Source of the DNA: Lewinella sp. 4G2
GTDB lineage: Bacteria > Bacteroidota > Bacteroidia > Chitinophagales > Saprospiraceae
DNA: 64,000 nt
Assembly (NCBI RefSeq): GCF_001625015.1
Contig: NZ_LVWJ02000014.1
Span: forward strand, 3,596,001 to 3,660,000
Direction: 5' to 3'
Under the pieces are notes generated by a model, which saw only the letters and a list, made by a program, of their open reading frames with translations, was not told the DNA's origin and did no database searches. Shown in pieces: positions 19,191 through 60,655 of this stretch. The stretch's first letter is position 1. Every line of letters starts with the position of its first letter. A program made the translations under genes and the position numbers.

Positions 19191-20060
19191 TTACCCAAAC
19201 ACTGCGAACACCAGGTAGATTCCAAAGAATACCACCCAAGTGCCCTGGTAGAAACGAGCGATGGAAGCCTGATCGGTGAGATCCAAACTACGGGTATTCA
19301 CCCCAAAACCGACGAGTAAAATGATCAATCCTCCGCCCAGATAATACTGATGTTGGGCCAACGCATACGCACCCGCTACCAGCAATGTGAAAGATAGCAA
19401 GATGGCACCCGCCCGGTAAACCCAGTCCTTAGAACGGATGAGGGATAAGGTGCGGATACCATGGGCATCGTCGCCTTCCGTATCCGGCAAGTCTTTGTAC
19501 CAGGCGATGATGACGCCAAAAACAAAAATTACCGCCGTCAACAACCAGATCGTTGGGGGGATTGGAGGAACGCTTGCGGCTTCGCCCAGATACTTAGCGT
19601 AGTGCAAGTACAGGATCAAATTAACAATGAGCCCCCGCACGACGATAATGCAGAAGGCAGCCCAAAAGTGAAAGCGTTTTAGCCGAATAGGATCGGCACT
19701 GTAAGCCGTACCGAGCGCGATGCTAGACAGTACGGTGAGCGGTAGATACGGTGGGTACCACAAGGACCCAATCACCGCCAGAACACCACAAACGCCGACA
19801 ATCCACCTACCCTGCGCGATGGTGTAGGCACCGCTGGCTAGCGGTAGATAGGGTTTGTTGATCCGATCAATCTCAACGTCCGTGAGTTGGTTCAGGCCCG
19901 TGATGTATACGTTGGCGGCAAGACATACGAACAAGGACCATGCGAACATCCCCCAATCATGTATACCGTACTGTCTGGTTGCAATCAGGTAGACGGCCAG
20001 TAAGGACAGCGTTGTACCAATCAAAGTGTGTGCCCGGCCAAACCTGAGGAAAGTGATCAT
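19191..20060 (-). CDS. homogentisate prenyltransferase (UbiA family, VTE2-like)
   Basis: This 289-residue integral membrane protein has about eight membrane segments and the two UbiA aspartate motifs: NQLTDVEIDRINKPYLPLASG (near residues 56-76) and KDLPDTEGD. The wording around both motifs, and the C-terminal RSLDLTDQASIARFY, closely parallel plant and cyanobacterial homogentisate phytyltransferase. That enzyme condenses homogentisate with a polyprenyl diphosphate, with loss of CO2, to start tocopherol or plastoquinone synthesis. Its start overlaps the end of the gamma-tocopherol-methyltransferase-like gene by 4 bp (ATGA), so the two are translationally coupled. Which prenyl chain is used cannot be told from sequence. 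Confidence 0.88.
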   Translation of the reverse strand: MITFLRFGRAHTLIGTTLSLLAVYLIATRQYGIHDWGMFAWSLFVCLAANVYITGLNQLTDVEIDRINKPYLPLASGAYTIAQGRWIVGVCGVLAVIGSLWYPPYLPLTVLSSIALGTAYSADPIRLKRFHFWAAFCIIVVRGLIVNLILYLHYAKYLGEAASVPPIPPTIWLLTAVIFVFGVIIAWYKDLPDTEGDDAHGIRTLSLIRSKDWVYRAGAILLSFTLLVAGAYALAQHQYYLGGGLIILLVGFGVNTRSLDLTDQASIARFYQGTWVVFFGIYLVFAVFG

Positions 20061-20908
20061 CCGGCGGGCTTTGTTGCGCGGACCATTCCGTAGGCAATCG
20101 CTCCAGAAGTGAAGCCCTGACGCATGTACCGCATTGCCCAGGCGCCCTTGATGGTGGACATACCTGCTTTAATCAGCCCCGGCCAATTCCTGGGGTCTAA
20201 TCCGCTTTCAATGACCGCTCCCCAAAACGGCTCTACGGCTTTGGACCAATCGTCGGTGGCGACGTTGCTGAATCCGGATAGCTTTGCCGCCTTTCCTAAA
20301 GTTGAAATGGCCACCATCGGAGGCAGGTGATACAGCTTGCAGATGTTGCCCAGGATTTTCTGTTCCTTGCCAGATAATGCCGGTGGTTCTTCCCGGTGGC
20401 ACCAGGTTGCCATCAGGAGTTGCCCACCAGGGCGGAGGAGGGAATAAAAGAGATCCATCAGCCCTTGCTTATCCGCCATGTGCTCGGCGGATTCCATGCT
20501 CCAGATGATGTCAAAGGTGCCAACATCCTCGGGTGAAAGGGTAAACAGATCTTGCGCTTTAATGGTGAGGCGGTCGCTTAAGCCAGCCTCTCGGTTGTAC
20601 CGTTGCCCGTTGTTGGCCTGGACGGGGCTGAGCGTCACGCCCAATCCGACGGCGTCAGGGAAACGCTGCGCCAGGTAGCGGCTGCTTCCACCGACCCCGC
20701 ATCCGGCGTCGAGGAAACGACTGACTTTGATCGGGCACTGGCCCCACTCCAACAAAGCCTCGATCATGTCGACTTGCGCTTGCTGGTGGTCCACCTCACG
20801 ATTACCGTCCGGGCCGTAGTAACCGTGGTGCATCTGCTCACCCCAGGTATTTAACCAAAGCGGCGTGGAAGCATCGTAGAAGTCTTTGATCTTCTGATTA
20901 AGTTGCAT
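20057..20908 (-). CDS. gamma-tocopherol C-methyltransferase-like SAM methyltransferase (VTE4-like)
   Basis: This 283-residue class I methyltransferase has the SAM loop DAGCGVGGSSRYLAQRF, VTLSPVQA, and WSMESAEHMADK. The N-terminal LWLNTWGEQMHHGYY and the late PFWGAVI ... GMSTIKGAWAM blocks mirror plant gamma-tocopherol methyltransferase, which adds the last ring methyl in vitamin E synthesis. Starts at 20908, 20914 or a GTG at 20923 are all possible; homology does not decide. The gene sits between VTE2-like and VTE3-like genes, which strongly supports a role in a prenyl-quinol pathway. A sterol or sarcosine methyltransferase is a less likely alternative. Confidence 0.87.
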   Translation of the reverse strand: MQLNQKIKDFYDASTPLWLNTWGEQMHHGYYGPDGNREVDHQQAQVDMIEALLEWGQCPIKVSRFLDAGCGVGGSSRYLAQRFPDAVGLGVTLSPVQANNGQRYNREAGLSDRLTIKAQDLFTLSPEDVGTFDIIWSMESAEHMADKQGLMDLFYSLLRPGGQLLMATWCHREEPPALSGKEQKILGNICKLYHLPPMVAISTLGKAAKLSGFSNVATDDWSKAVEPFWGAVIESGLDPRNWPGLIKAGMSTIKGAWAMRYMRQGFTSGAIAYGMVRATKPAG

Positions 20909-20997
20909 GCGCATATATTTCACATCCAGCCAGGAGGAGTGGGTAAAGTGGAAAGCTGGTCAAACTATTCGGGTATAATTGCCTGGATGGTGCCACC

Positions 20998-21927
20998 CTA
21001 TTTTCTACCGAAAGCTTTGTGGAGCATCCACGCACCAATAGCTACGCCCAGACCTACAAGTACTACTTTCTGATGATCGTTCAGTGGTTCCGGTTCGGCA
21101 TCAATCCCCCGCAGCGGTGCAGTGACTGATGCTAAAAGGGCCATTGGAATGAAGATGAATCCCGCGGCCGATCCAGCCAGGACCCTTCCGGCCAGGAGTA
21201 GTCCACGACCAAGGGAGTAGCCTTCGGGCGATGCATCCACCAGGCTCTGTTCGGGAGCCACGGAGCGGTAGGTGGAGGGGGATGGTCCAGCGGCTGGCTT
21301 CTGGCCAATGATGGCGATGCCGTAGCGTTCGTTCTCCTGCCAGTGCGGCGCTACGTAGGTGTACTGGACGTTCTTGAAGCCCGCCTCCCGGTAGTACTCG
21401 TGGTAATCCTCTTCCGGTGGAAAGAGCATCCATGTATTCGCTGCGAACTTACTGATGGGATTGACCGGCTCGATAGGGCCAATCAGCAGCGCCCAGCCAC
21501 CGGGTTTAATAACACGGTAAGATTCGTTGACGCCCAGTTGTGGATCTGGCCAGTATTCAATCGATCCGGCGGAAACGTAGCGGTCAAAAGTATCGTCGGG
21601 GAAGGGGATGTTCTCGGCATCGCCCTCGTACCAGGAGCAGCCCGCTAGCTCGCGTTTAGCCTTGGCGTGCGCCATTTGGTGGGGGCTTTGATCCACACAC
21701 GTGACGTTTCGGGCGGGGACGCGTTGCACAATGCCTTCGGTGGTAAATCCGGTTCCGGATCCCACGTCGATCACCTTTAGGTCTTCGGCATCATCCCAGT
21801 AACCGATATCGAGCGCCTTTTCGCGCATTCTTTCCGTCCAGAAAAGTGGGTTAACGAGTTTGTCGTAGAAAACGGAGAGGTAGCGGTAAAACCAATAGGC
21901 TTCGCGCTTGTGTTGCATCAGTCTCAT
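20998..21927 (-). CDS. MPBQ/MSBQ methyltransferase-like, membrane-anchored (VTE3-like)
   Basis: The 309-residue protein begins MQHKREAYWFYRYLS, then has the SAM site DVGSGTGFTTEG, DQSPHQMAHAKAK, and YVSAGSIEYWPDPQ followed by GGWALLIGP. These match plant 2-methyl-6-phytyl-benzoquinol methyltransferase (VTE3) almost word for word. That enzyme methylates the intermediate made by homogentisate prenyltransferases, in both tocopherol and plastoquinone routes. The C-terminus (about 235-309) contains hydrophobic stretches consistent with a membrane anchor, as in the plant enzyme. I chose the ATG at 21927 because homology starts there. It heads the three-gene minus-strand cluster. Confidence 0.88.
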   Translation of the reverse strand: MRLMQHKREAYWFYRYLSVFYDKLVNPLFWTERMREKALDIGYWDDAEDLKVIDVGSGTGFTTEGIVQRVPARNVTCVDQSPHQMAHAKAKRELAGCSWYEGDAENIPFPDDTFDRYVSAGSIEYWPDPQLGVNESYRVIKPGGWALLIGPIEPVNPISKFAANTWMLFPPEEDYHEYYREAGFKNVQYTYVAPHWQENERYGIAIIGQKPAAGPSPSTYRSVAPEQSLVDASPEGYSLGRGLLLAGRVLAGSAAGFIFIPMALLASVTAPLRGIDAEPEPLNDHQKVVLVGLGVAIGAWMLHKAFGRK

Positions 21928-59620: not shown

Positions 59621-60655
59621 CTAAATCACTTCAATCAGGTGATCGCCCGCCGAAACCATTGCACCGAACGGCCGACAGTGGATATCGTGCGTTTGGCAGA
59701 GCGCGATGAATTCGTCGGCGTGGTCCGTAGCGACCGCACAGAGTAACCCGCCGCTCGTTTGGGGATCGGCGAGTAGGTGCAACGCTCGGTCATCAGCGGC
59801 TTTGATACCTTGTCCGTAACTGTCCAAATTGCGGATTGTACCGCCGGGGATGCAGCCTTCCGCAAGGTAGTGGTCCAATACGCCATCGCCGATGAAGGGG
59901 ACATCATCCAGTCGAATCCGGGCTTTAGTATTGCTGGAATTACACATTTCCGTTAGGTGGCCGAGCAGGCCGAAGCCGGTCACGTCCGTCATGGCGTGAA
60001 CGTAGTCCAGTTGGCCAATCTCCTGCCCGATACGGTTCAGTTTGGTCATTTGTTGGACGGCCAAGTGGGCATCTTCGGTACGTAGTTTTTTCTTTTTCTG
60101 CGCGGTGCTGAGGATACCAACACCGAGTGGCTTAGTCAGGAAAAGAAGATCGCCAGCGTGGGCGCCACCGTTCTTCTTCAGGTATTTATTCTGTACCCTT
60201 CCCGTTACGGCCAATCCAAAAATGGGTTCCGGGCTGTCAATACTGTGCCCACCGGCGAGCGGGATTCCGGCTGCCTCACAAGCCTGGCGGCCACCCTCGA
60301 CGACCGTGCCGGCGACTTCGGCTTGTAGCTGTTTGATGGGCCACCCAAGTATGGCGATGGCCATTAATGGTGTACCTCCCATTGCATAAACGTCGCTGAT
60401 TGCATTCGTCGCTGCGATCTTGCCAAAGGTGAGCGGGTCGTCCACGATGGGCATGAAAAAGTCGGTGGTGGAGATGATGGAGGTTCCATCCCCTAGGTCA
60501 AATACTGCTGCATCATCCCGCTGGTCATTGCCCACCAACAATTGTTCGTAGACCGGTCCCTGATTAGTTTGGGAAAGGATCTTATCAAGGATAGCAGGAG
60601 ATATCTTACAGCCACAGCCTGCGCCGTGAGAGTATTCAGTGAGTTTGATGGCCAC
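59621..60655 (-). CDS. selD: selenide, water dikinase
   Basis: The 344-residue protein has the SelD start with the catalytic Cys/Lys segment ([11 protein letters not shown]; Cys14 or Cys16, Lys17), [44 protein letters not shown] and [10 protein letters not shown]. It makes selenophosphate from selenide and ATP. The active-site residue is encoded by an ordinary cysteine codon, not TGA. No selA, selB or tRNA-Sec is in the window; selenophosphate may serve tRNA 2-selenouridine synthesis instead, or those genes may lie elsewhere. Confidence 0.95.

Follow-up and report, generated by a model that had tools for sequence, protein, structure and literature searches.

A gene trio for a putative tocopherol-like pathway in Lewinella sp. 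4G2 and its relatives in the Saprospiraceae

The plant tocopherol pathway comprises VTE1–VTE4, hydroxyphenylpyruvate dioxygenase (HPPD), and geranylgeranyl reductase (GGR). The Synechocystis tocopherol genes are slr1736 (homogentisate phytyltransferase, HPT), slr0089 (gamma-tocopherol methyltransferase, gamma-TMT), sll0418 (MPBQ methyltransferase), and slr1737 (cyclase). The sequences of these genes and of Arabidopsis VTE3 that serve as references below are provisional copies, not taken from database records. A 1982 survey reportedly dealt with alpha-tocopherolquinone in microorganisms. Photosynthetic organisms are regarded as the makers of tocochromanols, and a few protozoan parasites have been claimed to produce them as well (PMC6832408). 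Methyl-plastoquinone is the exclusive quinone of the system described in non-phototrophic Nitrospira (PMC12324825), and tocopherol cyclase-like proteins of heterotrophs have been described with no function assigned to them there (PMC4963081). This report concerns three adjacent genes in a 64,000-nucleotide stretch of the Lewinella sp. 4G2 genome (contig NZ_LVWJ02000014.1, positions 3,596,001 to 3,660,000), referred to as the window. The genes encode a VTE2-like HPT, a VTE4-like methyltransferase (TMT), and a VTE3-like methyltransferase (MT3). The trio probably makes up most of a pathway of four enzymes that would lead from homogentisate to a methylated phytyl-benzoquinol, most likely di- or trimethylated and probably a membrane antioxidant. 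The features of the locus are as follows.

19191-20060, minus strand: HPT, a VTE2/HPT-like homogentisate prenyltransferase of the UbiA family (NF009525, PF01040, Asp motifs)
20057-20923, minus strand: TMT, a VTE4-like, gamma-tocopherol-methyltransferase-like S-adenosylmethionine (SAM) methyltransferase (class I methyltransferase, identity to provisional slr0089)
20998-21927, minus strand: MT3, a VTE3-like, plant-type MPBQ-methyltransferase-like SAM methyltransferase with a C-terminal membrane anchor (identity to provisional VTE3, hydropathy)
20057-20060, minus strand: ATGA, the 4-bp overlap of the TMT stop and HPT start codons

All three reading frames and the single 4-bp overlap that the original prediction had placed on the minus strand were confirmed at these coordinates. 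MT3 lies upstream of TMT across a 74-bp gap. The TMT start codon is GTG, with in-frame ATGs at 20914 and 20908. The MT3 end at 21927 assumes the first conserved ATG; a TTG-start frame extends to 21999.

The locus resembles the cyanobacterial tocopherol pathway in that it encodes the same HPT equivalog, TMT is nearest to provisional slr0089, and HPPD and GGR are present in the genome. It differs from that pathway in its apparently non-photosynthetic host, a marine bacterium, in its MPBQ methyltransferase, apparently of the plant type rather than the sll0418 type, and in the clustering of the genes. No close slr1737 homologue was found in the genome, the match to the tocopherol cyclase family PF14249 being distant only. 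The predicted set of activities equals that of plants and includes a VTE3 apparently of the plant type with a putative C-terminal anchor, but the genes form a bacterial cluster, the reductase passes only the broad TIGR02032 model, and the cyclase candidate is distant. Nitrospira is a non-phototroph with a benzoquinone, and here a benzoquinone is predicted from the genes; the MpqE model is not passed, however, and menaquinone-7 (MK-7) is the reported quinone here in place of an exclusive methyl-plastoquinone (PMC12324825). The Lewinella PF14249 protein is of the same cyclase-like kind as those of other heterotrophs, which the available text does not link to HPT, VTE3, or VTE4; the terms Lewinella, Saprospira, and Bacteroid are absent from the paper's main text (PMC4963081). 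In searches of open-licence papers, which may miss older chemistry, no listed title or abstract opening dealt with genes or products of this kind in Lewinella or the Saprospiraceae; the matching papers PMC6801134 and PMC4626686 proved unrelated. We rate the enzyme families as known and the host group and the gene arrangement as new, with a VTE3 apparently of the plant type.

The HPT assignment was examined with curated models. The protein scores 281 bits on the NCBIfam equivalog NF009525 (homogentisate phytyltransferase, cut-off 226) and 128.9 bits on PF01040. The HPT model is the only one passed among the prenyltransferase models listed, and the next best gives 54 bits against a cut-off of 313. 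The provisional slr1736 sequence scores 467 bits on NF009525. Residues N57, D61, and D65, together with D190, D193, and D197, are invariant in 13 of 13 aligned homologues; two Asp-rich motifs are typical of UbiA prenyltransferases. The homogentisate-type prenyltransferase of the original prediction is thus borne out by NF009525. Searches of viral contigs gave no relatives of HPT or VTE3, and the plasmid records searched for HPT gave a single distant archaeal UbiA.

TMT and MT3 are class I SAM enzymes, and neither reaches the cut-off of a curated NCBIfam model. Their best VTE3 and VTE4 reference sequences are provisional, two of them unchecked. TMT is 42% identical to provisional slr0089 and 28–31% identical to sll0418-type enzymes. 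Two cyanobacterial plasmid records that first appeared as weak TMT matches are among the latter; once fetched, they were 73–77% identical to provisional sll0418, which assigns them to the sll0418 type. Nine weak viral matches to TMT (23–34%) were set aside as generic methyltransferases. MT3 is 49% identical to provisional Arabidopsis VTE3 (range 49–51%), and its C-terminus, as judged by hydropathy only, is hydrophobic over residues 242-275 and 288-306. Similarity, trees, and conserved linkage support the gamma-tocopherol-methyltransferase-like and MPBQ-methyltransferase-like identities first proposed for TMT and MT3, as hydropathy supports the membrane anchor of MT3, the references being provisional in both cases.

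With the provisional reference, no prokaryotic proteins in this analysis came closer to plant VTE3 than those of the Saprospiraceae. Among named relatives, Neolewinella antarctica, a marine species of the Saprospiria, has the protein most similar to MT3 (87% over the best-matching segment). An MT3 match of any kind occurs in 383 of 395 genomes of an even phylum sample, and a close relative in two, the Lewinella genome itself and one more member of the genus; the best match after these is 36% over 132 residues. The nearest plasmid-borne relatives are in three haloarchaeal records (~43% over 61% of the MT3 length). Plant VTE3 has long been thought to be of archaeal origin. The VTE3 tree was rebuilt without a doubtful Natronococcus frame (branch length 10) and without the Bacteroidota and Chroococcidiopsis outgroups. 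It places provisional Arabidopsis VTE3 among the Saprospiraceae proteins, with two haloarchaea outside (100/100). The placement inside the Saprospiraceae is weak, as a constraint that holds the Saprospiraceae together without it was not rejected (p-AU 0.10). At 209 and 219 residues, the two haloarchaeal proteins of the tree are too short for the anchor, and the haloarchaeal relative shown lacks it.

A haloarchaeal VTE3-like gene of Halomontanus was considered as a further VTE3-HPT pair and rejected. The adjoining prenyltransferase is not an HPT (39.8 bits against the cut-off of 226) and passes NF009516 instead. In this Halomontanus rarus plasmid (L230:4938-6630) the methyltransferase stands head to head with the non-HPT UbiA, and the pair perhaps serves another prenylated quinone.

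The distribution of HPT was determined in three genome sets. Among 40 relatives, HPT scores over the cut-off in 21 of 21 sampled members of the genus (Neolewinella), the window genome included, and in none of the 19 others. The phylum sample contains two such genomes in 395, both of the genus, and the family sample 21 in 199, spread over 16 of 112 genera. The surroundings of all 17 HPT genes outside the genus were fetched from the 199-genome family sample. A complete GGR-VTE3-VTE4-VTE2 cluster, in fixed order and on one strand, is present at 11 of the 17 loci, and three more are consistent with the cluster but cut by contig ends. The VTE3-VTE4 pair is found at 15 of 15 loci examined, with HPT also within the stored flank (≤6 kb) at ten. 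At the other five (L037-L041) HPT is not within 6 kb, and the corresponding genomes carry it elsewhere on the same contig. The linkage has been lost there yet the genes are retained in the genome, and they are therefore likely to work together. Conservation across genus and family excludes a chance origin of the trio. The pairwise distances of the four genes correlate with Spearman coefficients of 0.45–0.67 (28 pairs of cluster genomes), or 0.55–0.83 with the genus added (91–136 pairs), in a comparison that lacks three gene rows. These correlations are consistent with joint inheritance but are not decisive.

The remaining three of the 17 loci (L186, L189, and L190) carry diverged HPTs of 34–40% identity, and the other cluster genes are absent. 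In a tree these HPTs join the provisional Synechocystis HPT (90/91) and stand away from the cluster type, which suggests a second, separate acquisition of HPT in the family. At L190 (463-3682, genome G570) the diverged HPT scores 265 bits on NF009525 and is preceded by an overlapping 247-residue frame of no Pfam family. The same locus has a divergent 501-residue gene. Its second half matches DUF92 (180.6 bits, cut-off 27.5), which we take to be the family of the phytyl-phosphate kinase VTE6, and its first half is phytol-kinase-like by eye only. These neighbors hint at possible phytol salvage.

The supply of the two HPT substrates was traced in the genome. The Lewinella GGR passes the geranylgeranyl reductase subfamily TIGR02032 (220 bits, cut-off 158.8) but falls below the ChlP models TIGR02028 (75 versus 505 bits) and TIGR02023 (120 versus 343 bits). 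Its gene is ~0.4 Mb away from the trio, and a close orthologue (67–100%) is present in 16 of the 21 genomes of the genus and in none of the 19 other relatives. HPPD is encoded on another contig (TIGR01263, 437 bits, cut-off 277). The original prediction had called for a genome search for VTE1, HPPD, and the reductase: HPPD was found, as was a reductase that is linked to the trio in the clusters of relatives, but in place of VTE1 there was only a distant PF14249 homologue. Its statement that VTE1 and HPPD are missing from the window is consistent with the frames of at least 150 residues, among which neither was seen by eye, with no formal search; the PF14249 and HPPD matches found across the genome lie outside the window. 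In the cluster of genome G442 a ferredoxin-like gene of 119 residues (L183:12530-12889) lies between the VTE3-like gene and GGR; it reaches no NCBIfam cut-off, and its product might pass electrons to the reductase.

The genome encodes one PF14249 protein (77.7 bits, cut-off 26.6). All 21 genus members carry a PF14249 gene, as do 4 of the 19 other relatives; the phylum sample has 11 such genomes in 395 and the family sample 85 in 199, 83 of them over cut-off. In the family these genes occur in 19 of 21 HPT holders versus 66 of 178 non-holders (64 over cut-off; Fisher p 2e-6, uncorrected for kinship). The two HPT holders without one are G562, which is 83% complete, and G570, the genome with the DUF92 neighbor. 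Plasmid records searched for the cyclase gave three matches only, in the genera Pusillibacter, Subdoligranulum, and Monoglobus. At 7 of 21 genus loci, and at none of the four loci of other relatives, the PF14249 gene is directly preceded on its own strand by an Fe/Mn superoxide dismutase gene, an arrangement in keeping with an antioxidant role.

L098:7404-9309, same strand: superoxide dismutase and PF14249 gene pair; the pair is also present at L049, L052, L056, L059, L060, and L063

We infer the reactions, their order, the product, and its role from family membership and gene linkage. HPPD would convert hydroxyphenylpyruvate to homogentisate, and GGR, a member of the ancestral cluster that is encoded elsewhere in this genome, would reduce geranylgeranyl to phytyl diphosphate. 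HPT would condense homogentisate with phytyl diphosphate with loss of CO2. The membrane-anchored VTE3-like enzyme would then add the second ring methyl, and the VTE4-like enzyme a further one. For cyclization to the chromanol no candidate other than the PF14249 protein was seen, and it may work as a cyclase. Since the substrates of VTE4 in plants and cyanobacteria are chromanols, a cyclization step is likely. The description of the Lewinellaceae gives MK-7 as the respiratory quinone and notes carotenoid pigments, and MK-7 is reported for three related families (PMC5167729). The product would be an antioxidant that protects membrane lipids alongside MK-7 and not a respiratory quinone. We lean slightly toward a chromanol of the tocopherol type; the chance of an uncyclized di- or trimethyl-phytylbenzoquinol product is substantial, if a little short of even. 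The earlier suggestion of tocopherol, tocotrienol, or a new methylated prenyl-benzoquinone remains supported.

Several observations weigh against the proposed pathway. The names VTE3 and VTE4 depend on provisional reference sequences, and the joint branch of TMT with slr0089 is not strong (84/73). A close GGR orthologue is missing from 5 of 21 genus genomes (G002, G003, G008, G010, and G015), of which G002 and G015 are rated 100% complete and G010 55%. Diverged hmgA-like matches, none over cut-off, occur in 35 of 40 relatives, and HPPD may instead serve tyrosine breakdown. The weak spot of the reading is cyclization. Provisional slr1737 scores 447 bits on PF14249 versus 78 for the native protein, which is 23–24% identical to VTE1 and has YTEKDWG in place of YxEKNWG; 63 of 64 distinct Bacteroidota PF14249 genes examined have YxEKDWG. 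YxEKNWG is the motif of the photosynthetic cyclases and is more or less preserved in heterotrophs (PMC4963081). None of the 17 loci with an HPT or a cluster has a PF14249 match, the family is widespread among HPT-negative genomes (the 66 of 178), and HPT-positive and -negative genomes are intermixed in the PF14249 tree. After removal of three duplicate loci the tree comprises 64 Bacteroidota genes; among the genomes represented are 36 of the 85 in the family that have a match and, of the 15 that are HPT-positive and lie outside the genus, 8. Because of the low score, the low identity, the EKDWG motif, the absence from the cluster loci, and the mixed tree, the PF14249 protein was not filed as VTE1.

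The absence of PF14249 matches from the 17 loci, the distance of the Bacteroidota PF14249 proteins from VTE1, and their occurrence without HPT are also the strength of the explanation that we regard as a serious, if somewhat doubtful, contender, namely that the pathway ends at a non-cyclized methylated phytyl- or geranylgeranyl-benzoquinone. Such a plastoquinone-like redox carrier or antioxidant would be made by a VTE4-like enzyme that methylates the benzoquinol ring, with the PF14249 protein unrelated. Plastoquinones of an unusual kind have been described from non-phototrophic Nitrospira (PMC12324825). That a distinct VTE4-type enzyme is encoded points to a chromanol as its substrate instead, the PF14249 gene does accompany HPT in 19 of 21 holders, and MT3 scores 35.9 bits against the cut-off of 335 for the MpqE methyl-plastoquinone methyltransferase (NF052510). 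The mixed tree and the many HPT-negative Saprospiraceae with a PF14249 gene also fit an older function in menaquinol cyclization to a vitamin K-type chromanol, from which the protein was recruited to a prenyl-benzoquinol where the cluster exists. MK-7 as the reported respiratory quinone would suit this idea (PMC5167729), which appears quite unlikely. We know of no menachromanol from these bacteria.

It is very improbable that the UbiA enzyme and the two methyltransferases serve menaquinone, ubiquinone, or sterol metabolism and that the likeness to vitamin E synthesis is superficial. Both methyltransferases match generic SAM families and MT3 is weakly similar to the UbiE family, but MT3 reaches 60.8 bits against the 158.35 cut-off of MenG/UbiE (TIGR01934), TMT reaches 39.5 bits against the 103 of UbiG, and HPT passes the HPT model only among those listed. 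MK-7 is the quinone of three related families (PMC5167729), yet the cluster is patchy. The route from homogentisate to a methylated phytyl-benzoquinol is the reading we prefer. In its boldest form, which we advance tentatively and consider rather unlikely, the Saprospiraceae would make true vitamin E-type chromanols via a GGR-VTE3-VTE4-VTE2 operon and a second kind of cyclase (the EKDWG type), and plant VTE3, anchor included, would share its nearest known ancestry with this lineage.

If the proposed pathway is correct, the cluster in a non-phototrophic bacterial family widens the range of tocochromanols, and vitamin E-like antioxidants may arise outside photosynthetic life. Cultured strains exist in which the product could be sought. 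Members of the genus with and without the reductase provide a natural test of side-chain reduction, as the HPT-bearing genomes that lack a close GGR orthologue predict an unsaturated side chain. The pathway would also give a testable role to the PF14249 proteins of heterotrophs (PMC4963081).

An OmpA-like gene lies upstream of the trio at a distance of 150 bp, and a convergent DUF58 gene lies downstream. By eye, neither flank stands beside the cluster in the other listed loci. A promoter and terminator scan of the locus gave matches at or below the chance level. Elsewhere in the window, the frame at 59621-60655 appears to resemble selenophosphate synthetase SelD.

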